A stretch of DNA of 64,000 nt from Antitrichia curtipendula (Eukaryota > Streptophyta > Bryopsida > Hypnales > Leucodontaceae): the NCBI GenBank assembly GCA_951230915.1, contig OX579637.1:31248001-31312000 (forward strand), in the 5' to 3' direction. Position 1 is the first letter of the stretch; every line of letters starts with the position of its first letter. This document shows, in pieces, positions 38,085 to 62,313 of the stretch. The notes under the pieces are model-generated. The model did not search any database and was not told the DNA's origin. It saw only the letters and a program-made list of their open reading frames with translations. The position numbers and the translations under genes were made by a program.

Positions 38085-38980
38085 GATAATAGGTAATTGA
38101 GCACATATGTATATTAAAAGCCATATAATAGAATGCACTTTAGCATTGTAAGCGTTTAGGGTGTGTTTTTTGCTGTTTTACTCATTGAATCAAATCCATC
38201 ATCTAGGGATTTCATGATGTAGAGATTGAAATACTTGTCCACAAATTTACTTCTGGAAATTGCAGACCATGTGTAAATATTGTGAATTCAAATGCTAACA
38301 TGTCTACATGTTTATTTTGTTAGAAGCATTGAGATCCACAACAAAATGGAGGTATGAAATCCATCACTGAAATTGGGAATTGGAGATCAAGAGATCTCCA
38401 GATGAAATTCCCATAGCATTATATAGGCATATAGGATGACATGTTCAATGCATTCAAATAGAGAGATTTCTGCAAAATAGAGACAATTGTATAGTGAAGT
38501 AAGGTGAAATCACCACAATTCATTCGTAAAGATACACCAAAGCATACTTAGGCATGCGCCTCTAAAATGAATATGAAATTAGCTTGCATTTCAGAGTCTA
38601 CTGTACAAGCTATTGGGGTCATCTCTAACATGTACGACCGGGGGGATTAAATGCATCCGCATGTTCATAGGATCTATATCAAGGATATGAACCGTTCGAT
38701 TCCTAAGTACCTCCCTGGCATGAGGATCACTAACGAGGGTCTTCAATACATGTTGACGATGAGGATGATGGAGTTGCAACTTGCAATGTAAATCACATCC
38801 ACAAATTATCCGCCATAACCTCGAAATAAGTTTTTGTGGAAGAAGACGTGCAAGAATCTCTTTCAATGACGACCAATGCATATTCGACCAGAGGAAAACG
38901 GAAGTCGTTGTCAGCAAAAGACTAATGAACGCCTCGAAGCGTGATAAGGTCTTCAAATTAATCTGGAGATCCGAAGGAGA
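37962..38980 (+). repeat. Segmental duplication, right copy
   Basis: Direct counterpart of 30168-31185. This copy is continuous with the full HAD-like exon and more motif B copies, so it is probably the ancestral one. The two copies flank 6.8 kb holding the interrupted ORF and LTR B. Confidence 0.85.
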
Positions 38981-39025
38981 ATCGCCACTGAAGAGAGCAC
39001 CCGTGAGTACCAGGATCACCACCGC
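38591..39025 (-). CDS. Second, degenerate FCP1/NIF-like HAD domain
   Basis: The acceptor TTCTCTGCAG opens an exon at 39025 reading AVVILVLTGALFSGD. Then come RFEAFISLLL, SVFLWSNMHWSSLKEILARL, VLKTLVSDPHAREVLRNRTV, HILDIDPMNMRMHLIPPVVH and a stop at 38591. Block order matches the HAD domain at 41.1-40.5 kb: motif I strand, WSS/WSN, (F/V)LK, D-x-D-P and HP. Motif I lacks both catalytic Asp (ILVLTGAL instead of LDLDGTL), so a phosphatase is not expected. A paralogue at 26.6-27.0 kb keeps the same reading, which supports this strand. The 5' exons are not resolved; it may be the end of gene B or a tandem partner. Confidence 0.55.
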   Translation of the reverse strand, partial: AVVILVLTGALFSGDSPSDLQINLKTLSRFEAFISLLLTTTSVFLWSNMHWSSLKEILARLLPQKLISRLWRIICGCDLHCKLQLHHPHRQHVLKTLVSDPHAREVLRNRTVHILDIDPMNMRMHLIPPVVHVRDDPNSLYSRL

Positions 39026-40465
39026 CTGCAGAGAACAACACCCGCCCACAGTCAAGGACACAATACCTATAATGAAAGGAAATGTGACCTTAATTATCGA
39101 GAGATCTCCTGATGGAATATATCCTATGAAACTGTCTCTAGCATATCCGAACAAGGGATCAGTGTTCCATGAACTGTAGTAATCAAGCACTCTGATTTAC
39201 TAATAAAACTATAAAGAAGAACGCAGAAAACAATTCGTACTTCCGACGACCCCCAGAAGCTTTGGGAAAAAATGTGAGACTTGTGTAATTTTGCTCTCAT
39301 CAGTTCAAAGTAATTCCGAGATGATCGAGAGAAGTAGGGCTCCATTATTAAGTGAACTGCTTATGGAGAATGTAGATCATTCATAAACTAAAGTGAACTA
39401 AAAAACTACCTCCACATGTGGTGGTAGAATTAGAGGAATAGAATTCGGATCGAGGTAAACCATGAAGATCCGTATCGTGAAATCTCATGATGTAGACTGT
39501 AAATGAGTAATACACCCGTACCCGAAAAGTAGAATTATCGAACATCAGGAGATCTCCGGATGAGGTAATAGACGAGCTTATTACAAAATAACATCCAAAG
39601 AGTTTATGCAGAAGAGAACTGAACCAGTGTCCATATTACTGATGGACGAATGAGTTGGTAAGAAAAAAAAAATATTGTAAGAACGAATTCCAAGCGAAAG
39701 AAATGAGAAACAAAACAATGATACCATACGCACTCAGAATAAAGATATGACATGTATAAGGAATCATGTAGCGGGAGATCTCCTGATGAAGAGTTAGCAG
39801 TGGGAGGGCTAGGGGCCCCAACGGACCACAATTCAAATACGATTAAAATTATTCCAAGGGAGGTAGAGGGGTAATAGAATAGCGAGAGCGTAAATGAAGT
39901 ATCTAACAAAAACATAATGAAGGACTCATAAAACGGAGAGCATTTGTGAGACAAATCAGACATCTACATCTCTTCCGAGAAAATCCTAAAACTACGCAAA
40001 TTTAACGAATTGAGTCTGCTCGAAGGATTATCATTTACATATTACAGGATCATGGAAAACAGACGGCCATACTAAGAAATAAACAACCACATTAGCAAAT
40101 TCGCTGGAAATTCCCATCATACGGATCACAGGCATTAGAAAACTCACAGAAGGGACGGAGCATAAAGTACTTTAAAGAGAAAACAAGAAGAGCTTGGTAT
40201 TCGACTACAACAACACTGAAGTTGCAGAAAGCATCGTGAGATATCATGATGATCGCATTACTATGAAGATTACAAGTATATTTATAAGGTCACCCAGTTT
40301 GTTTGTTATCAATATAAGCGTTGAAGTCAGTTACAAAAGATGCATTTACTATGATTATAGTCTATTCTACCAATATTGTGAGACCCACCATCTCTACTTA
40401 TATAGAAGTCCCAGATGTCATCGTGAGATCTCCGGATAACGCCTACCGAGTATGAAAAAACAGTC
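39026..40465. other. Gene B 3' region between the two HAD domains
   Basis: No coding block recognised. It carries six motif B copies. On the minus strand a frame at 39963-39604 is open, but it runs through a motif B copy and shows no domain. Confidence 0.45.
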
Positions 40466-41121
40466 CTATTTAGGAATTCCACCCAGAATACTCTTCGCCA
40501 GCCTGGAAAACTTAATCTCCGACCTCTGACCACCCGGAAGTGGATGGTTCAAGACGTAGGAGACGACACTCTCGTTTGACTGAAACAGACCCTGAAGCCA
40601 TGGCTTCAACTGCCCCTCCAAGAAGTAGTCCCTCAGATCACCAGCCCATGATTTTGGATGAACGGCGGTGCATGGATCATTCAGGAGGTTCTTAATCGGA
40701 CTGTCATCAATTGTAAAAACATTGTCTAAGGAATTTATTCTCGCGATACTGGCGAAGGTGGTCATATCCTTCAGAAAGTAGGGCCTATCCGGATTGTTGC
40801 GGTCTCTAAAGGACGACACCCTGCAATCCTCCTGCGAGAGAACAATGACGTCCGCTGCTTTAAATGAGGTGGGCCGCAGAAGGGTATCCAGTAGAGACCT
40901 CACATTTCGGCTCAAAGCGCTGCTCCAGAACGCAACGGCTGCATGTCTACGCAACCAGTCAAGGAACTCTACAACACCCAGACGGGGTACAATCTTGCGT
41001 CGATTAAGATCATCAAAAGATCTGTGAAGAAGAAGCCCACTGAGGTCAAGGACCACAGAGTACCGTCTGAAAACTACCTCTCTCGATGAACTCGCCACAA
41101 GCAAGGAAGGCATTCTAAGCT
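40466..41121 (-). CDS. Gene B exon 6: FCP1/NIF-type HAD domain
   Basis: From acceptor CTTTTGCAG: YSVVLDLSGLLLHRSFDD, RLGVVEFLDWLRRHAAVAFW, SSALSRNVRSLL, YFLKDMTTFASIARINSLDN, VFTIDDSPIKNLLN, AVHPKSW and QLKPWLQGLFQSNESV, ending SILGGIPK before stop 40466. This is the NIF/FCP1 C-terminal-domain phosphatase fold. Motif I is D-L-S-G-L rather than D-x-D-x-T, so the second catalytic Asp is missing, while the DDSP motif is kept; a pseudophosphatase or binding role is likelier. About 220 residues, a normal length for the domain. Confidence 0.75.
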
Positions 41122-41218
41122 CTGCAAAAGACAAAAGAAACATGTAGTTAGAGTCAATTCAGGAGACATAGCTTTAAAACAAGATATGATACAATGAAAT
41201 AGTAGAGCACTCAAGCAC

Positions 41219-42788
41219 CTGTGACATCTTCCGTCTCATTTCCCCTTGGCTTCAGCGCATTGCTCTCCGATACTTTCAGAGCATCTTGTAACGGCGCCCC
41301 TTGTTCAAGATTCCAGTTAAACACCTCTTCGTATATGAAACGATTCGCTTGCCTTACGGCTTCCAGATGCTTTGACTTTGGATTATCTAGTGGCCGATTG
41401 GGGTAAGAATTTAGACTTGAGAAATGACATAACTCCTTGAACACATCAAAATTGCTGACCTTCAGAACCTCTGGCCCATCTAAGGGCAAGGCATGCAAAA
41501 AACCCGTGTCCACACCTGTATCGCTTTCTCGAGCAACCTCACCTGCTGCCTCGAGGGCGATGTTTACTACAGATGCCTCCTCAAGCCTCGACGAGTCCCT
41601 ACCTGGTACGAGACTAAATAAGTCCAAATCCGTCATAGCATCCCTTCGAATGTCAACACTCATGTCCACCTGCACGCGCTTATCTATAGGCACTATCGTG
41701 GGATCCCCCGATGAAGGAAGGTTCTCTTCCACCGTCTCTATACCCTTCCCCTTGCTTCTAGAAGTAACATAGTCATGGGAGATAACCGGTGTCTCCTTTA
41801 GCATCTCACCCGATACCGAAGTGCCGGTTGCAAGTTTTGATTCCTCCTTCCCTAAGTTCCGCGTCTCACTTGCAGGACTCGTTAGCAGCTCAGACTCTCC
41901 AGTCCTCAACTCAATCACCTCTTCATGTATGTCGGGAAGCTCCAGCGTGCAGCCAAGTGTAGGGCTAAGTGACTGACCGTCTTGCCCAACGACGATCGGG
42001 CTCTCCTGTGTCATTGTGAGATCCCCCGATGACGGCTGGGCAACTTCCTCCTGCGGTCGTCCTGCCCCCTTCACAGGTGACTGAACATTCGGACCCTCTC
42101 CATTTCCTTGTTTCGCATCAGACATCTGAGGATGCTCAGCACCCGTGAGTGTGACTGCTTTGGACTCTAAATGTGAGGGTCGAGAGGCGTAGGAAACAAG
42201 TGTCTTTGCGGCTTTTGACGCTTCCGGTGACGGCGAATCCACTGCATCGTCGCCGGAGCCCTTTCCCTATTGATTTTCGGTGGCCCCCATTTTAGGATCT
42301 GAGCGACGAACAAACCGGTCCTTGTCAATCACTTCCACGTCAGGTGACGAGATGATTCCATCCTCCAAGAATTTCTCCGCCGCCAACACTGCGGTACTCT
42401 TGCTCTTCTTCTTAACGATAACCTTGTCCTTCACCTTCTCCAGAACATCAGAAAGCTTCTTCTTGATTTCTGGTTTCTTCCGCTTCTCCTGCGTCGACTG
42501 CTCTGGACCTCTGACTGACTTCGAAGACTTCTTGACGGCTTTCTTATGGAGTTTTCTCTTGTCAGTAAGCGCCACGTCCGCAGCGTCGTCCTCCAACTCA
42601 CTGTAGTGACAAGCAGCACCTGAACCAGCTGGTGAATCTCGAGCTCCCTTCCCATGCCTTTCCCTCACGCTCTCCCGCGCTAGACGAACTTCCTTTTCTA
42701 TCTTATTGACCAAGGGCGGAGTCTCAAAGTCACCCGTCTGCCCCCTTCCTTGCGGAGAGTCCTCCTGCGTCGGAACATGCCAACCACA
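41219..42788 (-). CDS. Gene B exon 5: long Ser/Pro/Lys/acidic linker
   Basis: From acceptor TTATTTCCAG: CGWHVPTQEDSP, a strongly basic stretch (KKPEIKKKLSDVLEKVKDK, VKKKSKST), a TAG at 42269-42267 (ENQ then stop then GKGS), and then about 340 codons of low-complexity, acidic, Ser/Thr/Pro-rich sequence ending EVFNWNLEQGAPLQDAL and EDVTG at donor GTGCTT (41218). Looks disordered and nuclear. Two motif B copies (41694 and 42012) are read through as coding. Confidence 0.55.
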
Positions 42789-42886
42789 CTGGAAATAAGA
42801 AAGCCATTGGGATAGCGTATATCGTTGATGTGCGCTGCCAGGCATCCGGAAATCTCACGATGGCTCAACAAGAAGTGGACATTGAC

Positions 42887-43126
42887 CTTATTGTTCCCCT
42901 GCAATAACCCAGTTCCTCCTTCTTGTTCTCGCTCGCCGGAAATGTCCAATTCCTTGTACGCTTCTTCCTCCTCATCCGAGTCCTGCTCCTCGTTGTTCAG
43001 TACTTGGTGCTCAGACAGTGGCTTCGGCTTCAAGTGGAAGTGGTCCCACATTTGTCTCGCAAAGGCTTGACTCTCATTGGCAGCCTCCGCGGAATTCACA
43101 ACTTCGAGGACTTTTATTTTTGCACT
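42887..43126 (-). CDS. Gene B exon 4
   Basis: From acceptor CTGCTGTAG: SAKIKVLEVVNSAEAANESQ, then DHFHLKPKPLSEH, an acidic run (EEQDSDEEEEAY) and GNNK at a weak donor GTCAAT (42886). The first part continues the methylase-like region (strand plus helix after motif I). The intron 42886-42789 has the length needed to enter the exon 5 frame and contains a motif B copy. Confidence 0.5.
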
Positions 43127-43275
43127 CTACAGCAGAAGGGAAAGAAGAATACGTCAGGATCTGTTAGTTTATGGGAACAACATAATATTGGAAGGCGATG
43201 AAACGAAAGGGACAATCAGTTGCGTACCATTCCTAGGAATGTGAACTCTGGTCCACTGTTTATGTTAACGACAAT

Positions 43276-43296
43276 CACTAGTAAAAAAAGGGCTGT
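43276..43296 (+). repeat. CACTA element left terminal inverted repeat
   Basis: 21 bp, CACTAGTAAAAAAAGGG followed by CTGT, identical in inversion to 57126-57146. Confidence 0.95.
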
Positions 43297-43961
43297 TTTG
43301 TAACCACTAAAACAATGACTAGAGGCTATAAAAGACTGAACAGTGACTGCAGGCCAAAAATATGGCGCAAAAACTGACTTGGGAAGCATTGTAGTCATAG
43401 GTGAGTCATTTGAAAGACTACTAGATGATGAGAGGATGACATAGTGGAATAGAACTTCTTCATGAACGTTTTTTCATTGGTCATGTGCTGCCATCGTTGA
43501 TGTGGTCGCAGGCTAGTCATAGTGTAGTTTTGTAAGAATGCCACTGCAAAGGCAATGACCTGTAAATGACTGGCATATGACCAGCAACAAATGGCGGTGG
43601 CAATAATATATTTTTTTTTTTTGGAATGCCAACTTGGCGAGTCTGACTAGGAGTACTCGTGGCATAGTTGTTGTACAGTCATTGCCTGTATAAGTAGGGG
43701 TTTTCTATATGAGTCATATAGTAGTTGCAGTTGTTGACGTGGATGCAGACCATTGACTTGGAGGTAGTTATTGTGTAGTTATTCAATGTCTCCGGATGGA
43801 TTTCAAGCACATGTGGTTGGAGGCACTTAAGAGAAAATTATAAATACATAGTAGGGATTGCCGAGTAGCACTACAATGTAATTTTGAAAGAGTTCAAGCT
43901 GAATTGAAAGTGTCATCCATGTTTTGAGGACATACACAGCTAACTTCTGCTGAAAGCAATG
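43297..43961. repeat. Left subterminal repeat region of the CACTA element
   Basis: Many short AGTCAT / ATGACT / GTAGTC words in both orientations between 43310 and 43760. The right end (about 56240-57115) has the same words (AATGACT, AGTCATT, AAATGACTAG). In En/Spm such subterminal repeats bind TNPA; that role here is inferred. Confidence 0.7.
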
Positions 43962-46900
43962 CTAGTATTGTGCAGATGCCAACAAGTGATCTTCTGCAGA
44001 AAGTTCGATGGCCCTAATAAGAGAAGCAGTCATTGGCGGTGCTGGTACAATTTCTGGAGCAATAAGGCCGTTGCACTCCACTGTTGTTGTAACGAAAGCA
44101 TCAGGTGCATCGACAACCTCCTTCCTTGACCGTGCTTCCTTTCGCAGCACGACTTTCCACCCCGGTCTGTCCACTACATCAGAGAAGAAAACTTGGGTTG
44201 CTTGGTTGGAAAATATGAATGGCTCAGACATGCGTGGCATCTTGTGTCGGAAATTGACAATTAGAAAACCAGCATCATCTTTTGTGTATGTTGGGTTACC
44301 GCGATTATCTTGTCGTTTGACCCATTCGCATCTAAGAAGCACTGCTGGAGTTTGAAGTTGGCCATAATCAAGCTTGAGAATGTCCTTGAGCACTCCTACA
44401 TAGTTGACAAACACCTCCCTTGCATCAGCACAAGGCACTTGAAAAACTGATGCAACACCAGAATCGTAAGTTACCATTGCAGCAGATGATTCGTCTTCCA
44501 CTCGATAATGGTTTCCAAATGCCTTCATTCTGTTGTACCGCTTTGCTCTCTGTGAGGGTTTGCGGCATAAAAGTAATCTGTCCATATCCTCAGCATTTGA
44601 AACGTCAAGGGCTTCAGTTCTTACAAATTCAGTCACCGACTCTTCAAAGCATTGAATGGTACCATTGTTGTGATGCTCTTCTTTCCACTTCCTGCATGAC
44701 AAAGACATTTGTAAGGCACACTACATAAACATGATGCATATATACTGATGAGAAGTTCAGTAACCAACTAAAACAGTTGAAGGTCGTTTGAAATGCGTTT
44801 GCACAGGAATGCTATACAAATGACTGAAGTTGTAGTCATTAATTTGCTGAAATTGTGCTCATACGTTACTTGACAATGATTTCTACTTCCTGAATAACTG
44901 CAGAGCAAACTAAACAATAGAGAAATGACTGCACGCAGTCATTGTTAAGAAGTCCATTTTAGGGCGTCCCTGTAGTTTAATTTGTTACGATATTGCACTT
45001 CCATTTCAGTACATGATAAGGAGACTATGTAAGAACTCACATTATCCAAGGCTGCATGGAACTTGCGTTGTTCAATACATACTGATGTGCTAGATCTTGT
45101 AGTGCCGTAGTCATCATATATGGTTTGCCTGCACCCTCCAATACCTCTTCGGCATCACCGTATTCTTCCTTAGCATCCCAAACGCGCCTATGCACAGCAT
45201 CGAATCTCTGCAAGTACTCCGTGACAAACCCGATGCACTCGTCCTTTAGATATCCCTCAGCCATAGATGCTTCTGGCCTAGCTGTATTGAGCACGTATTT
45301 TTTCAGCGTCTTCATGTAGCGCTCAACGGGATACATCCACCTTGCTACCACTCGGCCACAAATGTCCAACTCCTGCGCTAGATGATATGGTAGGTGTGTC
45401 ATGATGTCAAAGAATGACGGCGGGAACTCCATTTCCAGAAGTGCCATACTTTCTGCCACGTCCAGTTCCAGAGAGTGAAAGTCAGCGGGATTGTAGACTT
45501 TTGTATACAATCTGCGGAATATTTTCGACATTCTCATGACTGCCATTCTGGGGCCCGGCTTCAGTAAGCCTCGCAAAGCCAGCGGCATGATCTGTTGCAT
45601 GAGAATGTGGTAATCATGTGATTTGAGGCCACCAAATTTCTTTTTCCTAATGTGCTTCCCCAATGTTGAAGAATATCCTGATGGTGTCTTCAAGGACTCA
45701 ATCGTGCTCGCGAATTTCTCAAACTCTGCATCAGAAAGCACATATGAAGCTGCTGGTTTCATCATTTTCCCACTCCTTCTTGGATTCGGTGTGAGCCACA
45801 AATGTGGACGTATTTTCCTCCTCTGCATATCTCTCTTCACTTTCACTGTATCCTTCTTCCCCGTAATTGTCTTCAAGAAGTTCTTTGCCATATTGACTTC
45901 GTAGTGCATGGGATCTAAAGTATGTCGAATGAATAAACCCTGCATATAGGCAAGCACAAGGAGTCCACATTTGAGAATGGGTTCTTCTACATCATGCACC
46001 CTTTGTTTGTATATTAAGCAGAATCTTTGAACGTGACATCTGCCTATCTACAGATTTTTGAAAGCTACTTCGCTCCTACATATGCACAAATGTAATTTCA
46101 GGGATGCCTCTTGTCTGCAGAGAAGCACAGTGGCCTAACGCACGGAGTACTAGTATGTGTGCCGTATGGCACTTCCATAATTGTCACGGTAGACAAATCA
46201 ATTCCCTGCCATTCATAAATAACTACAATACTACTTGACAATTACTACTTATAGTCATTCATGTAGAAAATCAGTGTTAATGGAGTGCTTAGTGCAGGAG
46301 GTGTGCTTTCCTCTACTGCTGCCTGCACCACTTCTTTGCCCATAGTATAGCTGGTCAAAGAAACCTTGCGGACATGAGACTCAATTATTTCCGCTTTGCA
46401 TTATACATATTCTTCAAATATAGAGATATGAGGCATTAGAAACCATGTGTACGCACCTTCCAGTAGGGTAATATGTGGAATATAGTTGCTCTCTTCACCC
46501 CATGTTTTTTTGATGGATCGCCAGGCGCACCATCTCGGTTTCCTGCTGCTCTCCATGCCGCGTATTCTTCAGCGTATTGCAATTGCTCCTCAACTGATAT
46601 CGCTTTCGGTTTACCGCGATTCTCCACTTCTCCATTGAAGTGATTCTTCATGGCAGATGCTCTGTACTTGTGATCCTCAGGTAGCCACCTCCTTGTTCCA
46701 CCATAGGTTTGCTTGCATAACTCAATGGAGTGCTCAGCATCTAAGTCACATCCACACCATGGACATGCAGCATAGCCCTGGTGAGCTACTCCTGCCACAG
46801 TGCCGTATCCTGGGAAATCATGGATTGTCCATAGCAAGACAACTCGCAAATTGAAAGTTTTGTTGCCGACATTTGCACCCACATCATATGCTGGAATACC

Positions 46901-48253
46901 TTCCCATAGTACAAGGAACTCTTGGATGAGTGGCTCAGCGTATACATCAAAAACCTCAGAAGTGACAGATTCTTTCCCAGGAATTAATAGACCCAACATC
47001 ACAAAAAATTTCTTGGTGCTCAACCAGGGCGGCAAGTTGTAATTCAGCAGCAGGACGGGCCAAGTGGACCAGATTGAACGAGTTTGCTTGAAGGGGTTCA
47101 CCCCATCTGCTGCCAAAGCAAAGTGGGCATTCCGTGGATCATTTGCAAATGATGGGTCCACATTAGTATGAAAGTGATGCCATGCTTTTGAATCGCAAGG
47201 ATGTCTCACCAAGTTGTCTCCACCCTCTCAATTGCTTCTATTCTGTGAATGCCAAATCATGAGCTCCGAAATTGCAGGGCTACGGAACATGCGTTGTAAT
47301 CTGGGAATAATGGGGAAATGCCTCAGAACTTTCACAGGGAACTTCTTCCGCACCTCATCCTTGTACCTCCGCCCATTGCAATGGGGACAACGTACTGCAT
47401 CAGCAAAGTCACCTCTGAATAGCACACAACCGTTTTCACATGCGTGAATGCTGTTGTATGTTAGTCCCAGCTTGCTCGTCAACGTTTTTGCAGCGTAATG
47501 ATTCAGTGGTAAAGAATTAGCCTCCGGGAGAAGGTGGCGTCCTAGTAAAGTGAGGAGCTCATTCACAAATGAGTTGCTGACCCCATGTACAGTGCATAAG
47601 TTCATTAGCAATATAGTGGCTGATAGTATTGTGCACTTTGCTCCTGCATACAATTCGTGCAATGCGTCCTCTAGAACAGAAGCCTCGAAGTTCAAATCTC
47701 CGCCACTTTCAGGGCTGCCCATTTCTTCTTACCCTTCATGCCCAGTGGAACTAGTGCTGAAGTTTTTGTCGCTATCCACACTTTCAGTGCTGTGGTCGTG
47801 AACATCATCGGCAACCATGAAAGTTTCCATAACAACGTTCCTAACTCTTTCCTCTAATGCTGAAGTGTCATCCTCTTCAGCTATCATTTGACGGGTATTA
47901 ATTTCTTCATCAAGCACCACATTCCGTGATGCTGTTGGCCTCCAAAATTCTTCCTCCCACTCTTCGTCTGATGACGTCTTCTCTCCGGGTCCTCTCCACA
48001 CTCGAAATTGTGGATGTCTTCCATTACGTATAAGGTGGTCTCTCACAGTGGAAAGCCTCCACTTTCGTTGGCCCTTACACTTCAAGCACGGGCAGTGCAT
48101 GCGACTCAAGTTCAATAATCGAGCTCTGTTCACTTCACGAATCCAAAGGCGATCATCGCGAAGGCCTTGACGTTCTGCCATTGACAAGGGCGCCCTTGCA
48201 GCGTCCATGCTTGACAAAGAAACAAGTAACTGCGGCTTCTCCCTGCACTGCAA
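43962..48253 (-). pseudogene. tnp2-like: CACTA tnp2-like transposase (Transpos_assoc, tnp2, DUF4218, DUF4216)
   Basis: Reads from about 48253: Transpos_assoc-like zinc region (MHCPCLKCKGQRKW, VRDHLIRNGRHPQF), then HACENGCVLFRGDFADAV and a CPHC finger, FPIIPRLQRMFRS, and the tnp2 domain (DPRNAHFALAADGVNPF, YNLPPWLSTKKFFVML, HDFPGYGTVAG, ACPWCG). Exons join by clean GT/AG sites: 46457 to 45939 (YWK then GLFIRHTLDPMH) and 45041 to 44691. DUF4218 is seen as GGLKSHDYHILMQQIMPLAL and FPPSFFDIMTHLPYHLA, and DUF4216 as NYVGVLKDILKLDY, LRCEWVKRQDN and SNQATQVFFSDVV. Two in-frame stops (TAA 47731-47729, TGA 47230-47228) interrupt otherwise continuous coding, so the protein is probably not made whole. 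Confidence 0.9.
47228..47731 (-). other. Two nonsense codons in the tnp2-like gene
   Basis: TAA at 47731-47729 (HEG, stop, EEMGSPES) and TGA at 47230-47228 (RSN, stop, EGGDNLVRHP). The frame is unchanged on both sides and the downstream sequence matches the family, so these are point mutations, not exon ends. Confidence 0.75.
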
Positions 48254-48870
48254 AAAGCATTTGGTGAAGAAGCATGATGTATTTTAGTTGAAGGCATATT
48301 GCATGACTATATCATGACATACAGCTGAATAACAGATGCAACATTGCAGCGATGGGTACATTATGTGTTCTCTATACAGTTTGAGGACTTTCATCATGTC
48401 GATACCTTGCCAAAAAGAAGCCATTCAATACATCATAAAACCTGTCAATGCAAATCTACTTTGCAAGCTCACGTGTTATGGAAGATCGTGGGCGACTGGG
48501 CGTTCTACTGAAGTTCAGTTTGTCAGAAGTCCTGCATATCCCTGCCTGAGTGCTGCTGCAGAGGAAACTGCAAAATCACAAACACAATGGAGTCATCAAT
48601 TCCGTAGTAGTTAATGCCATTAAAGCTTGAAGCTTCCACACTAAACGCTTCAGCAATCACATGAACATTGAGGTTGCCCTTCTATGCTAACAAGTATTGC
48701 AATCAGAAACTGAGCATTGTCTTTTCTTCATGTGGATTTCACATCCTGCATACTACTCTCCAATTCTACTTTGGAAAACACACAGATGCAATTCATCACT
48801 TTTGTCTTAGAAGAGTTGCACATATTAAGAGTCAGGATCACCAATATATGTACGTAGGACTTCTAGCAGA

Positions 48871-49028
48871 ACATCATTTATTACTATGCATGTTCATCAG
48901 GATGTCCACTATTAGCTCTCTATGTGGTATTCTTTATGAAAGTTTGAGTACATCATTTATTACTATGCATGTTCATCAGGATGTCCACTATTAGCTCTCT
49001 ATGTGGTATTCTTTATGAAAGTTTGAGT
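48871..49028 (+). repeat. Exact 79-bp tandem duplication
   Basis: The unit starting ACATCATTTATTACTATGCA at 48871 is repeated without visible change at 48950-49028, pointing to a recent event. Confidence 0.9.
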
Positions 49029-50364
49029 GGAACTTGCCATTTGTTGGCGTTGTCTTCACATTCAAGGAAAGGGAGTACATACCCTTCTATGCTATCATGG
49101 TGTCCTGGAGAAATGCCAACACACGACAATAATAAGCAAAGCCATAAACTGGAAGAAGTATGAAAATTCAAAACGCATTTTACACCCTGAACTTTGACAT
49201 TCTTGGCTACAGTCTGTTGTCCCCTTGCATGGGACGCTTCTGGCCGTCAATTCCCCTTCAAATCAAGAGAGGGCACTGTCTCCACTTCCTTATCCTTCCA
49301 AAATTGCCAACCTTTTTCTTCATCATATGGAATTTTAATGTTTGGTCATGCTAAACAAGAGAACACATCTGACTTCAAACTCTGACACTTGTATTGTCAA
49401 CATGTACTTCTCTCTAACTATGCCCATTTAGTTCATGAGAATGTACTGAATAGACTGCCTTCAGTTTCTAAGCGAATGTTCCATTTCCTCCCTTTATCAT
49501 TCCAAATCTTCTTGGTCATGGACTCAAGAATTACATGCTCAGACTATTCATTTGAAAATGCCACCATCTCCCCCCAGTATTGAAAGGCATGCCTGAAATC
49601 ATTGTAAAGTGAATCATGACCACTGTCCAACACAAATAACTACTAAATGACTACAACAACACTCTGTGCAGTTACTCATGAGTCATTCCTATGGCATCCA
49701 GCAGTGGCTGAACATAGAGTGTTGTATTTTAGACTAAAATTAAGTAAGTGACGACTGCACTTCCTTTCCTGTCAGTGCAAGTTGATTCAGGCATCTGTGA
49801 AGTACAGACAGGAACGATGTGTTCTAAGCAATTCAAAAACTTAGTGGAGACTGAACCTGAGATGAAATTGGACTAAGCACATGGGCCACACTTAACTGAT
49901 AGTACGTTTTCATCCCCTCCAGAAAATGTACCTCATCAATGAATGTGGCCCCCAGTTGTCATCAGCAACCTCCGACGCTTTCAACTAGTCCACCAATTCT
50001 TGAATTCCAAGTTGTAGCTTCAGAGACCTGCACGCAATACCTTCAATTCTCCTTCCATGTCTGTTGTCCAGCGATATCCAAGTTCCAATAGACAGCACTT
50101 CTTCTTAAATGCACTTCACAGCACATCCCTAGTTGTATACAGCAGGAATATCTGAAAACACTACAGAGAACACAATGACACACTGTACTAGGGAAGAAAA
50201 GTCTGAATATGAACTCGCTCGTGATGCACGTATACTGCAGTTAGCAAAGAAATTGGAACCAGTGAAGGCCGCCGTTGTAGCATTGTAAGTCCCTTTCTTG
50301 GTGTTTTGCTTGTTGAAGTTTCTACTTGCATAGATAGAGAGTGAGTGCAAGTGGCGACGGTGGA

Positions 50365-50504
50365 GGCTTACCTTCAAAATGGCGACAGTAGCATAGATCT
50401 CCTATGCATCTATTGAGAGTCATTTGTCGGTGTAGGCCTACCATTAAAATGGCGGCAGTAGCATAGACCTCCTATGCATCTATTGAGAGTCATTTGTCAG
50501 TCAC
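50365..50504 (+). repeat. Two-copy 70-bp tandem repeat
   Basis: Units contain AAAATGGCGRCAGTAGCATA and CTCCTATGCATCTATTGAGA, with copies near 50377 and 50447 differing at a few bases. Confidence 0.8.
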
Positions 50505-52640
50505 TCTATAGTCACTTCAAAGTCATATAGTGATAGCTTTGTCTGATTGAAATCATAAGGAAGTCTAAATGTAGTCTTCTGTGTAAAACAGCGCCGACCC
50601 CTCATTTAATGCAGCCATAATTTTCTCCAACTACGTGGCGCCTAGGGGTTCCTTTGGCGCCGTCATCCCTGAAGTCCTTCTTTCTTTTGAGCCGCCAATA
50701 TTGCACACCTTCCAGCAAGTATTCTAGGGATTGCGGCTTTTGCTTTGATTTTCCTTGTCTTACCGTAGGGTTTGCTGGGTAGGAGACAATCGATCGTTGC
50801 ATTGAAGCCGAAGAAGACGTCTGCAGTGTCGCCTGACAAAGAAGCATATTCTGCACCACCAAGGCGGAGTTTGAGAATCGCACGTTTGGCCGCTGCTGAG
50901 GGGAGTCTGCAGCATAGGCAACTTTTGCAGAAACGTCAAAACTTAGCTGCAAACAAGCGCACGAAGATGAGCAGCACCTCGGAGTCCGACCAGACTGGGA
51001 CTGATAATGAATTTGCGGCTGCAGGTTCTTCTCTAACTGTCTTGGTCATTGCTCTCTCTTTCGAGTGTTGGGGTTTCTTTGCAGCGCTTACACAATGTAT
51101 TCCGTGGTCCTTGCACAATTGACATATTCATTGTTTTAGGTTTGGTTTCGCAAAAGAAATGGCCAAGGAGACTTCACTTTGTAGGTGTGTGTCGAGGATT
51201 TAGGGTTTTCACAAGACGTTTGGCAACAGATGGCCACTATATGTATGCTTGCAATCAATTTGTGCAGGCAGTGTCAAAGTGCTGAAATCAAATTTCTTCC
51301 TTTGTAATGTCACGTTTATACTCTGTAATGCACGGTACAAATGTCCATATTGCTGAAACATTACTGTAGAAGGAGAAGACCTACCTCTGTCATAGATTAG
51401 GATTTTCCTTGCAATGCTTGCGGCCATGGCTGTAAAGTAAGACGCGCAATTGATGGCAGCTTGTCCTTCCATTTCAAGCGCACATGCTGCGCAGTGGATC
51501 AAAGTCCAATAATCCAGCTTTCTTTCATCACTTAACGACTCACTGCAGTGCACATGTGTTCATGGCAGCACATGCTGCTTGGCAAACTAAAATCATGCAT
51601 GACTGTATGCTACTATATGAGAGGCAAGGATTGGCAGTTGTGAAACGGCAGTGACTTTGGTCTGTTGGACACAATGTAGATGTACTGTCCGGACTTCTGC
51701 ATCCTTGAATTTCAGTTCCTTGAATTTCAGATCGTTGCCTTTCCTATTCTACTTCTTTGTTTTGCTTTGTGCTTGATGTAGAAGACTAAGTTTATCTTCG
51801 TGACAGTGTTGGATAGGTTCAACAGGGAAAGACGTAGTCACTGCATGCGCCTTCAACTGTGGGCTGCTTGGATTTAGAGCAACTTTGAAATCTGTTTGTC
51901 ATTCTTAACTGAGTTCTCTTGATGTTATTGCCCAGTTTTTTTCAATGTATATTCAGGAGCAACATTACACTAGCGGAAGTGCAACGAAGTTGGCATTGTC
52001 CAAGTAAATGTAGACCTATAAGCAGGAATTCCTTCTACTAGTACGCCTTAGAGCATCTTTCGGTTGAACATGTTTAAGTCCTGCCTTTCATTACTTCTGT
52101 TTTCAGTTAGGTAGTCTTTGCCAAGGTTATTGAGTTCCTTGATTGGAGGTGCAAGGGCAGACTGATTCTAGCATATTCTGGGGACTTGCAGGTGCAACAG
52201 GGCTTCTTAGTCTGCTACCGTACTTCTGTCCTCTTTCTAATTATTAGGCATTTCTGAGTTCATAGTGTGGGTTTGCATGTCCTTGTCCTAAGTGTTCTTA
52301 GAGTGACCAAGTTCTGTACAATGAAGCATTGTCCAAGCAAACGCCACTAAGGTGCTATGAATTCCAATTGCATTAAATGCTGCTTGTCAAAGTTGGATTA
52401 AGTTCATTGTCTAATGTTGCAGGATGCATCAATCATTTTAGCAAAGACGTGCTAAATCAGAATGCTTAGGGACCTTAGGCTGTGAAAGATAGTCCTTCAT
52501 GTACATGTCAAATGCTGCAGTGCATCCATGAAGACTAACTTGCCGTAGTGTAGAGCAGTCAGGGCAATATAGGAAATTCTTGGTTATGGTCTTCCTCATG
52601 TCTTGTTTGTGGTGTTGCAAGTGAAGGCAAACTGGCCATT

Positions 52641-55600
52641 ATGTCCGATGAAGACATCGTGGACGACTCGTTCAAGACAAAGCGTTGGTGGTTGAAGAAA
52701 GGAACTTCTAGTGCTTTGACTACATCGCTTGTACCTGCCCCTCGCAATGACACATCTTCTTTGCCTCCTGGAGGATTTCAAACACCGTGGCAGTGGATGC
52801 AGTCAGCATGGATGCAACCACAACACATGCAGCCTCCACCATGGCTCATGGGAGGGCAGCCGAGCTCAATGCCTTATGCTGTTCCTTGGAATGGCCCATC
52901 TCAGGCTGTGGAGAGCCGGTTGCCGGACAGCGTAGTCCAAGATTCAAGAAGACAGAAGCGGAAGCTATATGACAGTACTACTGCCGACAGGAGCACGGTA
53001 GGGATGAAACCGCATCAGCTACACATCCGTGAAGGTGGGGAGATTGACATTACTTGCGATGGCAAGAATGCATGGGATGATAGCATCCGCACACAAGTTC
53101 CACGCATATTGGATCTCAGTGTCCTGGAATGGGAGGGCCAGAAGTCGGAGGCTATAACACTACTGCGGCAGACGTTGGATGCTGAATTCGAATATGTAGG
53201 ACACCCTCTTAGTATGCAGGGATTCTGCAGTGCCATAAAACGATATATGAAGGCGGAGCGAGCAAGGCTGAAGGCAAGGTTTGTAGGTGGCTCAGAGGAC
53301 TGCCCAGTGCATGTGGACCCAGGTCAATGGAAAAACTACTGACTTATTGGAAGACGGGAACCCAACAAGAGAAGGCAGCAAAGATGGTGACCGCACGCGC
53401 ACAGGTGAAGGACTACACACACGTTGGGCGTAAAGGGAAAGCAGGGAAGGAGGCCATTGTGGTAAGCTTCACATTTCTAAATTTTTGGTTTATTTTGTAT
53501 CTATTGGTATTCAACTTCTACAGTGGAGCATGGTTGGTAATGGATACTACTAACATTCTAATTGTTTTCTTGAATATTAGACCCAAGGAAAGCAAGGGAG
53601 TCCGGGGCTGACTGAAATCGCTAAAGGGATTGAGCAATTAGATGCTCAGGCCCCTAAATCATCGGTATTTTTCAATTGCATGACGTTCATGGATAGGCAG
53701 CTGTCCTAGGGCATGCGGTGCATTTACTGCTGCTGTGGTGCTTTATAAGCATGGAATCATATGTAGTGCTTACAGTCATACATTTGATCACATAATGATG
53801 CACGAGTAATTGAAGTTGTCTAAATAGTATTTTATGAGTCATTAATTTCTATCATAGTCATTTGTTGACAAAACCAGCAAGTCAGCATGCTAGGGTATGG
53901 TTCATAGGAAGAGTTCTCTATGCCTGAGAAGTAGTGATTGTGTAGTCATTCTTGTCTGCCTCAGTCATACAGCAGTGATATAGTAGTCATTCTGGCCAAA
54001 TCCTTTTCAAATGTAACAAATGGAAGATTCTACTTTTTTTGAACATAATCTGACCTTCACTTCCACTGTGCCATTGTGTGTAGGGTGTGAGAACAGAAGT
54101 CTTTGCTCAAGTCTCAGCGTTACAAAGCAAGCATGACGACTTGGATGCAAAGTTCAAGAAGGTGCTTCTAAATCAATGTGAAACAACGGAGTCTCTACAA
54201 GAGATGAAGGGTATGCTGAGCAAGTGCATGGCCAAATTGTTTGGCACAAGCGATGCATCGGTCGATGTATCAAACTCGACTTTGCAGACGTTTCCCGATG
54301 GTGTACCTGATGTGTAGGTCATTGTGGGATGCCCAATGCTGAATTCTGAGAAGGCAAGAGGATCTTCTGCTGCACGAAGTCAAATAGACGAAAGTGACAG
54401 TGACGATGTCCAAGAACTGAAGGCCCCACCTACTGCTGAGGAGAATGCAAAGCTTATGCTCAATAAGCACATTGGCGGTGCATGCAATGAGGACTTCATC
54501 AAGGATGGCTTGCCTGAATTGTCAATGGGCACCACTTTTGCTACCAAAGTACGATCTAAGTCACCTGATTCTGCAAATGAACAGCTAGTCATGGAGAAGG
54601 GAACAAAGGCAGTAGTAAAGGACAAGAATGACACTAATGAAGAACTTCAGTTGGGGCCCCAGAATTCAGCAGAGCTCGATTGTGCTGAAGTACCGGGAAG
54701 TTATAAACCCGTTGTCAAGAAGGGCAAAGTGGCAGAGGGAAAAAACATTGTCGGGGTTCGCAAGTCAGCAAGGATAATGAAGAAGAAAAAAGAAGAAGAG
54801 CCAAGCCAATCAATTACTGAGGCAGCGGTGGGATTGTTGGAGGCCTCTGCAGTAGCAAGGGCTGCAGCATCAACACCACGTCTTTTTGCTTCTCCAACAA
54901 AGAAGAGGCTTCCGTCTAAATCAACCTTCAAAGTACTGGCCCATGATGTACATGAATCAAAGAAGGTGAGATATCCTTATGCACAGTCCATTCTCAATGT
55001 TCATGGTGGTGTGAAGCCTATGAAGCTCTTCATTGTGAATATGCATGTCACATGGCTTGATAGCCACTTATTAGAACAGGATAAGCCTAATATAAAAGTG
55101 AGGATCAGAGAGCATGGCTTCTAGGGTTCTCTGCAATCCTTTTGTAAATGCCAGTATGCCATTTACAGTCTATGTGATGCAGCACCTCAAGGAAATTGGG
55201 GATGACAATAACTTCTTGAAGTTATCCTTGTGGCCGCAGTGCCATGGACAAGCGGCTTCTTCAAACAATGCAAACTTGAAAGACCAATCTTCAAATGCAC
55301 TTGTGCAACCTCAGACTAGTCCATTGGAACTCCTTGAGCAACACACTGTGATTGGAATAGCGGTAGAAGTGCAAGGTGAGGGGACTTGCGAACCTCTTGG
55401 TTCTGCTTGCAATTTGTCCCCTTACCTTGCATTGAATTACCACTCTGACTGGTGAAAATTGAATGTGCAGATGACCTCCACAAAGACAGACAATCGCCTC
55501 AACACAATGCAGGAGAAGAATTCTGCCACTCATAAGGTAAGATTTTAAGATTTACATGGACACTGAATCAAAAGATTGAACACTACAATGCATAGAACTT

Positions 55601-56065
55601 AACGAAGTTGGTATGTAGTCATTCTTTCTTCAAATGACTTAGAAATGACTTTCTTATGACTACTGAATCACTTCCAGTCATTGACGCTGAGCCATTAACA
55701 ACCCACTGTCCTGACCTACGCTTGGAACTTCTTAAACTCATATCCTTTGTTTTTACCATAGCCGCTTCCTGAACTTCTCTTTTATTCTTGGTGTACAGTT
55801 TACCATGGGCCAGCGAGTGATGTTGATGAATCCAAAGTCTATAAATCAAGCTGTGGCATCAGGTGCGATCAGCGGCCTAGGGGGAGAGCATAAGTACCAT
55901 TTCAACGACATTCCTCCCTCTTGGTTCAAAGTGAATGTGTATGAGGCAATCTGGCCGCATGTTTCTCTAATGTTTCCAAATGAAAATGCAGACCAGGTGA
56001 AGCTTAAGGATGTGGTCGAATCTTGTGCACTTTGGGATGGCAAGTACATGAAAGCTGCCAAGTGA
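52641..56065 (+). pseudogene. tnpA-like: CACTA tnpA-like accessory protein gene
   Basis: First exon MSDEDIVDDSFKTKRWWLKK, a Met/Gln/Pro/Trp-rich stretch (WQWMQSAWMQPQHMQPPPW), then a plant Spm/ptta-type core ending VDPGQWKNY, with a one-base shift at 53340 to LTYWKTGTQQEKAAKM. Intron 53460-53580 (GTAAGC to TATTAG) leads to TQGKQGSPGLTEIAK. Next come EVFAQVSALQSKHDDLDAKF, an in-frame TAG at 54315-54317, a Lys-rich region (ARIMKKKKEEEPSQ) and a last exon from about 55801: GQRVMLMNPKSINQAVASGA, then VKLKDVVESCALWDG, like the TNP1/En/Spm C-terminal domain. TNPA-type proteins bind subterminal repeats. The shift and the TAG mark it as damaged. Confidence 0.7.
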
Positions 56066-57125
56066 AACCTCAATTTCACGTACATATGCATGTAGGTACA
56101 TAGTCATAGGTTTCTAGTATTTTTATAAGAGGCATAGTATATATACTTATCAGACTTTGCACTGCTGACTTCTGTTGTTTTCTACACTAAAGACAGTGAA
56201 TGTCAGACACTGCACTCATACACTAGTCTTTTCTATGTAATGGTTTCATTTTCATTTCAGTCATTTCCTAATTTCTAGTAATACATGACATCTTCTTATG
56301 CAACTATTGCAGTCATTGTTCTCTTGTTTACAGTACAGTCATATGCACAACAGTATAATGCTCTAAACTTCTGCTGTCATTTTGAGCTCAGTCATTACTG
56401 AGTTATACTTCTTAGAAATTACTTTTGAATGACTGCTTCTGCTTTTGGGAGGCCACACTCTATCCACTACTGAATACTATAAATGACTATACAACTACTT
56501 CTTTGAAGAGCTTTCTACTACTAGTTACTCATAAATAAGTGCACAGTAATTATTTAATGACTTCAGTAGTCATTCAATACCGTACAATGAACTAGCAAAT
56601 GACAGCTCACTAATTATTTATTATTGTCATTGTTCATGGGAGGACGCAAGGCTAGACAAATTACCTGCTGCCACATCTACAATAGGAGGTCCTACCATAT
56701 CCATCTTCCATAGGAATAACTGAAGTATGACTGCATGACCGCACGCCACATCATATTTCCCCAGACACGTCAGCAAAAATCCCTCTTCCAAATTTACAAC
56801 GTCACTAGCCACGTCCACACATGCAGCCCACATCAACTAGTCCTGGTCAGCCATTGAATCCATGTCACCCACCAGATGGGATGCCCCAAGCCACGTCAGA
56901 CATGCCTCGTCACAAACTATGTCCACCTCTGCAATCCAGTCAGCAAACCACTTGATGAAGTTCCACATCAGTAAACGGATGGAAAACAACTGTTTTGTCC
57001 TAAATGACTCACTTGTCCTAAATAACCCGTCCACAATGACTGTAACCCCAAATTTTGGCTCCAGTCTTTCTCTAGTCATTTGTGTCCTAAATGACTAGTT
57101 TTTGAGTCATTTACCCCAGTTATTT

Positions 57126-57146
57126 ACAGCCCTTTTTTTACTAGTG
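57126..57146 (-). repeat. CACTA element right terminal inverted repeat
   Basis: Perfect reverse complement of the left end; ends ...ACTAGTG at 57146. Confidence 0.95.
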
Positions 57147-58451
57147 GATAAGGTCTCCATAAACGTGCTCGAAGAAGATGATCATGGCCGTCGACATCTT
57201 CAAGTACAGTACATTCTGCCGTCTCCAATATGTGAAGTCATCCCGATGCTCCTTGGACCTGTATACTTGCTTCATCTTTTTAGATTCTCCCGGGAAGAAG
57301 GTTTTGAAAGACAATTGCAAACCATAGTCCTTGTTGTACCCGAAGCAGAACACAATGAAGACGTTGAAGCCCTCCCCGGCGATAGCCTCCGGGAATCCGT
57401 CCTCAGGTGCCGTCATGTAATTGACGAGGTGCAGGTCCCACACTCTGGTGTTGCCGTTTTCACGTCTTCGCTTCTCCAAATGTTGACACAGCATGTGGAA
57501 TCCGTCTGCATCAATAAGGAGTACGGCGGCAGACCGGGCTATGACAAGCTTCGTGTATGAGTCGTAGCACTCCATAGCGTCGAAGAATAGTCTCAGTCTT
57601 CGGTCCTCCAGAAGTTTTGCCGGTGATCCCAAATCCGTCTGCTCAAAGAGAAACCAGAAGTACATGTGCGGCTTACTTCCATCTCGCCATGAAACGATGT
57701 CGGGGTTCCTCAGAACACTGCTGAGATTTCCGGAGTGATCGTCCAAGACTCTGCACATGTAGTTATCGGAGTACCCCTTCTCAAGTGCCTCCTCCTCTCC
57801 AATGGTCGCCGTCGAACTGAAATACGCCTCCGACATGTCCCGCACAAATTGCGGACAGTCGGCTGGGTCGATTGTCTTGTTAAGCCCCGCTGTGCGATCC
57901 AGCAGCCACTTCGATCCCGAATGCGAATCCATGGCTTTGTTCACCCAAAGCTCTACTTAATCGCGATCGATTCCTTTCTCCTTCGCCAAGTCGTCCCACT
58001 CCGTTGCGGAGTATGGTTCGTACTCCGGCTTCTTGCTGGGTAGAGGATGCTTCCTGTAGTGTAGCATCAACTCGTTCTTCATCCCCCGAATGAGGCGCTC
58101 CTTGGCACCTGCCGAAGCAAGAGTCGTGAGAGGTTTCGGGGTCTTCACCTTGGAGCTCTTCACAGAAAAAAAATTCTCATCCACAAGAGTCGCAAGGTAG
58201 TTGATGTCTTCCGCTCGAAGCCCATACAACGTCTTGAAATCGTTTGCAGTAAGGGGCTTGTGCTTCAGAGTTCCGGTCTCATTGACTGACCCCGCGGTGT
58301 CCGACAGCAACCCCGTCATGTACTTCTCTTCAATTTTAATCCATCTGTCAACATCCTTATCGTCCTCGAGAAAGGCAAGTGGAATTCGCAGCTCCTTGTT
58401 GTCTTTTGCCTTCTGACCCGTGAAGATTGTCACAAGGGACGGAGGAAATGC
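57147..58451 (-). CDS. Gene B exon 3: degenerate N4/N6-methylase-like region, split by CACTA
   Basis: Starts AFPPSLVTIFTGQKAKD after acceptor TTGAGTAG. One in-frame TAA lies at 57959-57957 in the place of an ordinary residue in paralogue A. The later part has VLLIDADGFHMLCQHLEKR, RVWDLHLVNYMTAPEDG, FNVFIVFCFGYNKDYG and YLKMSTAMIIFFEHVYGDL, then across the insertion VVNINSGPEFTFLGM (43275-43228). Against the 15-14 kb methylase-like copy, the DPPY place reads NYMT and motif I reads NINSGP, so catalysis would be lost. The relation to methylases is an inference from colinearity with that copy. Confidence 0.5.
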
Positions 58452-58716
58452 CTACTCAAGACCAGAATCACAACGGGACTATTAGTACAAAACCGTGGAC
58501 AACACTGAAGCATCAGGGGATCTCACGATGATTAACTATTTCTATGGAAGTCACCGTGTACTTCGGCAATCGAAGTGGACATTTCATTCTAGAGTAAGCA
58601 AACTCATGATCCTAGATTAAGAGCTACATTAGCATCAAGGGATCCCACGATATTGAGAATGATGACTGCATTTATTAGTGGTCCGACCAAATGAGGGCAT
58701 TTGACATCACTCTTAC

Positions 58717-60037
58717 CATGTACTTCTTGTTGTGCTGCCTGCCTATGAGTGCTGGTTGCGGGCTGCCCATATCTCTCCATTTGATCTTGGCGTTGATTAG
58801 CTGCTTTGTGAAGCATTGCTCTTTCTGTTCGCCAGCAAGATTTTGGTTGAGGGCCCGTGAAAGCAACAACACGTTACCGAAGTTCTCCTTCTTGGCAAAA
58901 ATGGGTACTATATTGAATGTTGTTGCTAACTTCTTGTTTGCCTCTGCTATCTTGCCGTCTTTCACCAGATTCCTGTACGCCCTTACAGTGTGCTGCCCCC
59001 CTATAATGAAGTACTGAGTCTTAGCGCTGAATATTGACATGTCGGGCTCTTCTTTGTAGAAGTCGGCCTTCTTCTTGTCCCCATAAGGACCGCGCTTGAC
59101 AGGGAGCACCGTTATAACCCTACTATCTGAGTCGAACTCAGGTGCGATTCTGGCCTTGTTTGTGATCCCTTCAAGGCGGCTTTGCTCTATCCCTCTGTAC
59201 ACGAGAATTCGGGGGGGAGCCTCGTGCAAGCAATCGTAGTGTACGCGGATGGGATTCCCGGCCACATTGCAGATTGGTTTCTTCCCCCATCGGTACAACT
59301 CCGTGAAATGGGTGTCATATAACTTCTTCATCTTAGTCATGTCCTCCTTGGTCAGCTTCTTGATTTCGCTCTCTTCCATATTCACGCACACGTGAATAGA
59401 TAACTCGGTCCCTACCTTTCGCTTTTTCCCAGATGATGTGGCTTCTTCTGCCACCTCTTTGTCACCTGGAGCTCCGGCAGCTGACTTGCGCTTCTTAGCC
59501 TTCTTCTTTGGAGATGGTTTGGTAGGAGTACTTTGAACAACTGGACCCTCGGGAGCTCCAAAGTTGATCCGATCCTCGTCAATCAAATCCCACTGAGATT
59601 TCATTTCAGCCACACTCCAATGGAGTGATGAGGTGCTTCTATAGAACAGCAAGGATCTCTCTGCCATGGACTTGCACTTCGTCATGTTGAGCTTAGCGTA
59701 GTCCAGGATTAAGCCGTAAGTTATGAACTGGTCACTCTTCGGTATCTTCACCTCCACAACGACAAGAACTGTATCCCCATCAAGGCCCTGCATCTCCGTG
59801 ACGTTTAGCCCAGTTGGTTTGTGCACCCTGTCGACATGCTTCAGCATTGGGACGATGAGTGCCTTGCCTTCCTCTATCACGAACTCCAGCCACCACTCTG
59901 TGACGCTAAGGTTGCATCAGAAAACTGCCGCCGGATTGTGCTCTCCGATGTACTCGAAGGAATGTATCCAGTAGTCGACAAAGGCTGCAAGTTTCCTTGG
60001 GCTCAAGTCCTCAGGAATGTCGTGCATCTGTGCACCA
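58717..60037 (-). CDS. Gene B exon 2: N-terminal domain, Lys-rich linker, ParB/Srx-like domain
   Basis: Reads GAQMHDIPEDLSPRKLAAF, then a TGA (59919-59917), then VTEWWLEFVIEEGKALIVP. A Lys-rich linker (PSPKKKAKKRKSA) leads to a segment with NPIRVHYDCL, VITVLPVK, YFIIGGQHTVRAYRNL, FNIVPIFAKKENFGNVLLLS and RALNQNLAGEQKE. The order GG-x-H-x-R...VP-[VI]-F...L-x-x-x-LNxN is that of the ParB/sulfiredoxin N-terminal fold (GxHR box, then VPV strand, then a helix with N). It ends at AAGTACATG before donor GTAAGA (58716). The linker suggests nuclear location. No crystal-grade proof; the assignment rests on motif order. Confidence 0.6.
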
Positions 60038-61374
60038 CTGCAACATTCCATATCATACAATGTGTTAGATTAGAGTGTCATCAAAGCAAGTCCACATCTG
60101 GAATCATCGTGAGATCACACAATGTCTGCTTATATTGTAGGGCTTCTATGAACAGATTATTACGTCACTGCGGCTTCGAATGGAACCAGAGAGTTCCTAC
60201 GTGAGCATCATCAGGGGATCTCACAATGTTATGACTATTACTGGTCATCATCGTGAGCTCTCACGATGTGTCCTCACTCATACATCCGGGTTGCACGCTT
60301 TTGACCGAACTACTTATTATTCATGATCTGTTGGTCTACTTTGCTTATCAGGGGATCACACGATGCAATCACTATATGGGAAGCAACTCTGGTTGGATAG
60401 ACTACAATAAGCTTTGGTGTTCTGGGATACCACTCATGTTCCGTTATCGTGAGATCTCACGGTAATCTCTCTTTTATTCTACAGCTTCAGTCTCAAGAAT
60501 GAGATTTTACGGTTATGCGGTTGCGTTTTCAGCTAATTGAGTATCTTATTTCCCTCATTTCTTAGATGTCTCTTGGTTATCAGGGGATCTCACGATGATT
60601 TGAATGTGAATACATTCATTGACCGGACAGCCTATGCAGATTAACTGTCCCAAATTTCCCAGTCGAACTACTCTAATGGATACTTCATCGTGGGATCTCC
60701 TGATAGGGCTGACCCATTATGCATCTCTCTGGTTGATGCCACGCTACGATGCGCGGTTATAGGGTTTTAACAACCCTAAAACCGTGGGTTCTGAACTACA
60801 GACCTGTAATTATTGTGCATTCTTCAATCTGCTAATTCTAAAACCTCTGTTGTTCTTGTCTAAAACTCTATAATGGTAGTATGCTGAGATCTCACGACAT
60901 ACGGTTGAGAACAATTTACCCGTCATTCCAAATTGGAAGGCCTCCGCTGCGTTGTGATGACTGTCTTGCCATGCTTTGTCTTCAACGTGGTCAAGGCCAC
61001 AAAGCAACCTTCAATGTACGGGACAAATCGTAGCCTCAACTCCTGATATATGACGGCAAAGATCAACATCAGGAAGCCATAAATTGGAACTATGTATCAA
61101 ACTCAAACAACTGCAATGGATACAACTTTAACTTGCACGCCAATGAGCATAAGAACGAGGTGGGACAAAATTGAATGGAAGCAAGTAGCATTTCTCCTAA
61201 ACTCAATGAAACTACTGATAACATCTACATGCCGTCCAACGTCCACAATGTCAAAGTTAACAACAAGATAGCAGAAGCTAACTGCACAATTGTTCTCAAC
61301 GCACAAAACAATGCAAGTCATTGCATGGCCAAAAGCGAGCAAGTGGGGACACTCAAACGGAGACATCAACTCAC

Positions 61375-61583
61375 CTGCGCAGCAAATCTTTCAAGCCCGC
61401 TGCACGTCGCAAAGCTGGTACTATTTGCTCCAAGGTCGGACGCGCTCCCGCAGTAGCTCCAGTGTCCTGCAGCTCCCACAAGCCTCCAATGTCAGACGCG
61501 CCTCGTCGCCAACAACGCCGAGTTCCACTCACTGACGACGAGGGAAGTTTTCTACTCCGGAAGACCAGCGGCACAAAACGCAA
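61375..61583 (-). CDS. Gene B exon 1
   Basis: Candidate first exon from ATG 61583 (MRFVPLVFRSRKLPSSSV) to LRRAAGLKDLLR, ending at a consensus donor (GCAG then GTGAGT) at 61374. Its phase joins exactly to exon 2 at 60037 (acceptor TGTTGCAG). The ATG is a guess; transcription may start in the GC-richer stretch at about 61600-61750. Confidence 0.5.
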
Positions 61584-61769
61584 AGGATCAGGATCGAAGA
61601 CTGGAACATCGAGAGAGAAAACAGCGTGAGGTTGGGGAAAGGAAGACTATCGGGAGAGAAAACAACGGGAGGGAGCAAAACTCTCATCGGAGGAAAGAAA
61701 AAACCATCCGGAGGCGTAGAGGCCACGTGGCGCAAGCGGACAGGGCAAGGCGGAAGACCGGCAGCAGAT

Positions 61770-62277: not shown

Positions 62278-62313
<36 letters not shown>

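Follow-up and report, generated by a model that had tools for sequence, protein, structure and literature searches.

A dispersed array of 20-bp palindromes in and around a moss pseudogene, with a probable origin in a decayed mobile element

The Ectocarpus transposon Sola1-1_Ec32 carries a gene with ParB-like and DNA methyltransferase domains, and similar large accessory proteins in green and red algal transposons have been proposed to bind and modify the element that carries them (PMC12477816). In Arabidopsis, VANC binds a motif that is dense in VANDAL genes, in their introns and in the DNA upstream of them (PMC5735166, PMC10398659), and TNPA recognises the subterminal repeats of En/Spm (CACTA) (PMC2613891). 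Here we describe a 64,000-nt stretch of the moss Antitrichia curtipendula (assembly GCA_951230915.1, contig OX579637.1, positions 31,248,001 to 31,312,000; the window), in which a 20-letter quasi-palindrome recurs in and around a gene that we call gene B. On balance we lean towards reading these palindromes as cis-sites inside a plant mobile element, now decayed, of about 9.4 kb, with the gene B product as the most likely binder.

The palindrome array is real. When the consensus CATCGTGAGATCTCACGATG was scanned over the whole window, 22 positions matched in at least 15 of 20 letters, 21 of them in 38200-60899 and one at 30404. Twenty first-order Markov simulations of the whole window gave a mean of 0.4 such positions and a maximum of 2. 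The preliminary description of this DNA had placed about 23 repeats in 38200-60899; the array stands, and at this cut-off the number there is 21. A symmetric weight matrix built from these 21 copies, which match it by construction, also recovers 30404 and a further copy at 30585, which agrees with the consensus at 14/20 and so falls below that cut-off. All 23 score at least 17 bits, and the next best position in the window scores 7.1. Exact GAGATCTC is found seven times, and the central GATC is retained in 16 of the 21 copies.

The copies are laid out around and within gene B, the coding frames of which lie on the minus strand, with a left cluster downstream of it and a right cluster upstream. 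The left cluster (38200-40438, plus strand) holds eight copies in the 3′ flank, at 38200, 38385, 39095, 39473, 39543, 39769, 40232 and 40419. A pair at 41694 and 42012 (41694-42031, plus strand) is coding sequence, translated as PSSGDPTI and PSSGDLTM. The next copy (42843-42862, minus strand) lies in what is likely a short intron, placed by eye from its GT..AG borders, and two more, at 58511 and 58633, lie in the intron at 58452-58674, where the similarity of relatives stops. The right cluster (60105-60899, plus strand) again holds eight, at 60105, 60209, 60249, 60346, 60445, 60578, 60686 and 60880, all no more than about 875 bp upstream of the probable start codon. Given the minus-strand direction of gene B, the copies first assigned to its intron 1 are in its 3′ flank and those first assigned to its 3′ flank are upstream; the assignment of two copies to coding sequence was correct.

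Gene B itself is decayed. Its first exon (58675-60027, minus strand, start codon placed by eye) encodes a conserved domain with the stretch IIGGQHTV, has relatives P0001-P0007 at 42-52% identity, and is broken by a TGA at 59917. Beyond the intron follows an exon with no named domain (57147-58451, minus strand; relatives P0013 and P0014 at 46 and 50% identity), which contains a TAA at 57957. The middle exons (41211-43275, minus strand) are partly low-complexity, carry an in-frame TAG at 42267, and in the three frames scanned matched nothing in Pfam. The last exon (40466-41158, minus strand) encodes an NLI-interacting-factor (NIF; FCP1-like) phosphatase domain, PF03031 (E 2.4e-12, 47.3 bits against a gathering cut-off of 21.8), with relatives P0008-P0012 at 42-46% identity. 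From the N-terminus, gene B has a conserved domain, a middle domain of no named family, a disordered stretch and the FCP1-like phosphatase domain. By eye, relatives show sense codons at the positions of the stops at 59917 and 57957. These in-frame stops, together with a CACTA element inside one of its exons, make this copy of gene B a pseudogene.

The CACTA element (43276-57146, minus strand) is 13.9 kb long, has 21-bp ends CACTAGTAAAAAAAGGGCTGT, and encodes a tnp2 transposase, DUF4218 and DUF4216. The triplets flanking it, AAT and GAT, agree at two of three positions. CACTA elements of the DUF4216/DUF4218 type point to a probable plant host. The element lies inside a gene B exon, since in the relative P0013 the sequence continues across the point of insertion and there resembles the frame found again from 43275. 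Within the insert four windows match the consensus at 13/20 and none higher, no more than chance would yield, while 11.7 windows of at least 13/20 are expected by chance in the whole stretch. This bears out the earlier statements that the insert is free of the motif and that the array is older than the insert, which sits in an exon of gene B. Elsewhere in the window, an inverted piece at 672-1271 is 65% similar to 43962-44561, the DUF4216 region of the CACTA element.

Gene B belongs to a unit that recurs in part in the window. The left end of the unit (37970-37994, plus strand) contains a 23-mer, from 37972, that is found identically at 30176 on the plus strand and at 21/23 positions at 27609 on the minus strand, with unrelated sequence beyond it. 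Self-comparison shows that 37965-38979 recurs at 30169-31178 (copy 2, plus strand) with 90.5% identity, and the motif copies 30404 and 30585 sit there at positions homologous to motifs of copy 1. A third, more diverged copy of the left part (copy 3, 25520-27609, minus strand) comprises a NIF piece, a frame like that of gene C (below) and the terminus, 59-65% identical in pieces: 25688-25999 (61%) and 26615-27384 (59%) match, inverted, the end of gene B and its 3′ flank, and 27482-27609 matches copy 2 (65%). A common terminus therefore occurs in three partial copies and two orientations beside unrelated flanks, which suggests mobility. The 21 motif copies in the gene B unit lie over about 9.4 kb, and elsewhere in the window the motif is confined to copy 2. 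The proposed element would span 37970 to roughly 61224, counted without the later 13.9-kb CACTA insert, and its candidate right target-site duplication is an exact 9-mer, CTACATGCC (61225-61233, plus strand), whose left copy at 37961-37969 is flush with the left end. The right half's membership in the unit rests on the continuity of gene B and on the motif.

The motif is slightly asymmetric, its arms being close to CATCGTGAGA or to CATCAGGRGA, and copies can therefore be given an orientation. In an expectation-maximisation (EM) fit blind to position, 8 of 10 copies at 38200-42012 (six of the eight in the left cluster) were called forward, against 2 of 11 from 42843 onward, where the copy in the short intron opens a mostly reversed right-hand set that takes in the right cluster (permutation P 0.0018, Fisher P 0.009); two of those 11 were ambiguous, at 0.50 (counted forward) and 0.47. 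Hand scoring by arm type gave 7:1 with 2 ties on the left and 2:7 with 2 ties on the right (P 0.015). The scoring was chosen with the sequences already in view. The orientation flips between 42012 and 42843, close to the midpoint of the proposed element at about 42662.

Selection for the palindrome at present is not supported. Arms agree within copies at 7.19 of 10 positions, compared with 7.33 (sd 0.20) under random arm pairing, so compensatory change between arms is rejected. The symmetry of the copies had been taken as a sign of such selection; it reflects a common consensus and not counter-change, as the arms do not covary. Motif copies common to copies 1 and 2 of the unit agree at 36 of 40 bases and their surroundings at 881 of 969, a comparison of little power in which the motif is no better conserved. 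Gene B is, besides, a pseudogene.

According to the reading we favour, the element would have carried gene B, with its N-terminal domain bearing a ParB-like motif, its unnamed middle domain, its disordered stretch and its FCP1-like phosphatase domain. The 20-bp dyad would have been recognised at numerous positions by a DNA-binding protein, most likely the gene B product, and dyads dispersed in this way suit a dimeric binder. The bound sites would have spread over flanks, introns and tolerant coding stretches. The binder may have acted in the manner of the ParB-like/methyltransferase accessory proteins reported from algal transposons, its binding marking the element or shielding it from silencing. 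A protein of that type is the most likely kind of binder, with gene B a candidate and not an established member. We put forward more tentatively, and with distinctly less confidence, a specific version: the array may supply the target so far missing for a transposon-encoded ParB-like/methyltransferase accessory protein, with some 20 GATC-centred dyads bound, and perhaps methylated, by a gene B product fused to an FCP1-like phosphatase. If this is true, it would represent a form of self-marking that is independent of VANC and TNPA. The array could also serve as a handle to find and bound an element family that has no recognisable terminal repeats.

Several observations weigh against the origin in a mobile element or against parts of it. 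The right end rests on a single 9-mer, for which we estimate a chance origin at roughly 3% (5 offsets x 1500 positions / 4^9). There is no convincing inverted terminal repeat between the left end and 60850-62400, and no transposase domain in those frames of gene B and gene C that were scanned. The right half of the unit has no second copy in the window, and copies 1-3 could for that reason be segmental duplicates of the 3′ part of a host gene. The edges of the motif are not perfectly sharp: five right-hand copies are alike out to 29 nt at 69-83%, and immediately beyond the left edge T or A is commonest (11 of 21 copies at -1 and at -2), one base also prevailing at -5 (11 of 21). As to orientation, EM and hand scoring conflict on 38200 and 60105, both treat the copies as independent, which they may not be, and homogenisation within each side would imitate the flip. 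The ParB-like and methyltransferase-like readings of gene B were made by eye and have no profile match above cut-off.

The palindromes could instead serve a transposase that a partner element provides in trans; they would then be subterminal repeats proper, and gene B no more than cargo. The inverted orientation of the two halves and the failure to find a transposase in the unit would suit this, and giant elements that lack transposase genes and are mobilised in trans have been reported (PMC12477816). The sites, however, are also found in exons and introns as far as the middle of the unit, and no matching ends were found, and we regard this explanation as unlikely. We give a similarly low standing to the proposal that gene B is a plant gene like any other, duplicated locally, and that its palindromes are regulatory sites bound by a dimeric transcription factor of the host. 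The eight copies so close upstream of the likely start codon are what such a proposal would predict, but copies also lie in exons, introns and the 3′ flank, their orientation flips, the common end occurs with unrelated flanks in two orientations, and gene B is a pseudogene surrounded by transposons. That the locus was seeded by the 20-mer acting as a mobile or self-copying mini-repeat in its own right is very improbable: the flanks of the copies are mostly unrelated (by eye) and the motif occurs in coding sequence, but the weight matrix finds none elsewhere in the window, and copy 3 has no 20-bp gap at two comparable places (at about 60% identity, and the sites may predate the split), a result that disfavours spread as small single-palindrome inserts and with it the repeated spread first suggested.

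Other features lie in and around the unit. Downstream of gene B, gene C (38591-39040, minus strand) is a possible degenerate FCP1/HAD-like frame with a 39% identical counterpart in copy 3; it has no Pfam match, and its profile match to the NIF domain of gene B is weak (E 0.007, probability 5%). Directly after the NIF piece of copy 3, at 26088-26107, stands CATCTAGGGTACTCTAGATG, a 9/10 palindrome with the same outer arms and another core, possibly the version of the motif in the copy 3 subfamily, in a single instance. Direct repeats of 3.47 kb at 22048-25513 and 32680-36147 are 83% identical, with minus-strand reading frames in each; the first adjoins copy 3. A RING-H2 finger reading frame lies at 36960-37415, and the frame after it is cut by the left end of the unit at about 37970. 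A hAT-like miniature element at 62177-62643 has the ends CAGGGTTGTC and GACAACCCTG, an 8-bp duplication GTGAACAC on both sides and inner GGACGG/CCGTCC repeats. Copy 2 breaks off at 31176, where CAGGGTTGAC starts; this is similar to the hAT-like end at 62177 and is perhaps an insertion related to that element.

Database searches gave little for either the motif or the gene. Rfam gave no match, the exact palindrome occurred 0 times in IMG/VR, and literature matches listed for four fragments of the motif were all, by title, on other subjects. The first and middle domains of gene B gave nothing above cut-off in Pfam, NCBIfam, PHROGs, PADLOC and PDB (NCBIfam and PADLOC for the first domain only), including no ParB domain in the first domain in Pfam, NCBIfam or PDB and no DNA methyltransferase domain in Pfam or PDB. 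A DUF6551 match at the ParB-like position was seen in one of eight relatives (E 0.029, below cut-off). No relatives of gene B were confirmed in IMG/VR and GTDB genomes among 33, 78, 23 and 23 pattern matches, and phage records held nothing beyond two matches at E 1. By eye, IIGGQHTV resembles the ParB/DGQHR motif, and the middle domain of the relative P0013 has a stretch like methyltransferase motif I.

How does the locus compare with known systems? Gene B shares with FCP1/NIF phosphatases the PF03031 domain at its 3′ end. The first motif of FCP1 is DxDxT, whereas gene B has DLSGL and its relatives DLNGV or DLNGL. Like CACTA subterminal repeats, the array consists of many diverged copies of one family-specific motif. 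The left end of the unit, however, is ATTTAACTACTTTTGG and not CACTA...TAGTG, the CACTA ends belong to the nested insert, Transposase_21 (tnp2-type) is found only inside that insert and not in the unit itself, and the motif, a dyad of 20 bp, continues through the exons and introns.

VANDAL elements and the gene B unit both have a family-specific motif that is dense in non-coding parts of the element. The VANC21 motif is described as a 9-mer in tandem repeats of one orientation (PMC5735166), whereas the gene B motif forms dispersed dyads with a flip. The duplication of about 9 bp made by Mutator-like and VANDAL elements may be set beside CTACATGCC at 37961 and 61225, a single instance. No VANC or mudrA relative was recognised in the frames scanned, and no mudrA/VANA-type transposase was matched by Pfam in those of gene B and gene C, where a non-autonomous element is possible.

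By analogy, the algal ParB-like/methyltransferase accessory proteins appear to be the closest known system, and no other case was seen among the literature matches listed. They differ from gene B in that no profile backs either domain in gene B, no transposase was found in its unit, and the portion of the algal report used here mentions neither a terminal FCP1-like phosphatase domain such as that of gene B nor a target motif (PMC12477816). They resemble it in that the ParB-like motif of gene B, read by eye, precedes a middle domain of no named family, in what would be an element that also holds a nested insertion. Should gene B be of this kind, the array gives such proteins a concrete, testable 20-bp target.

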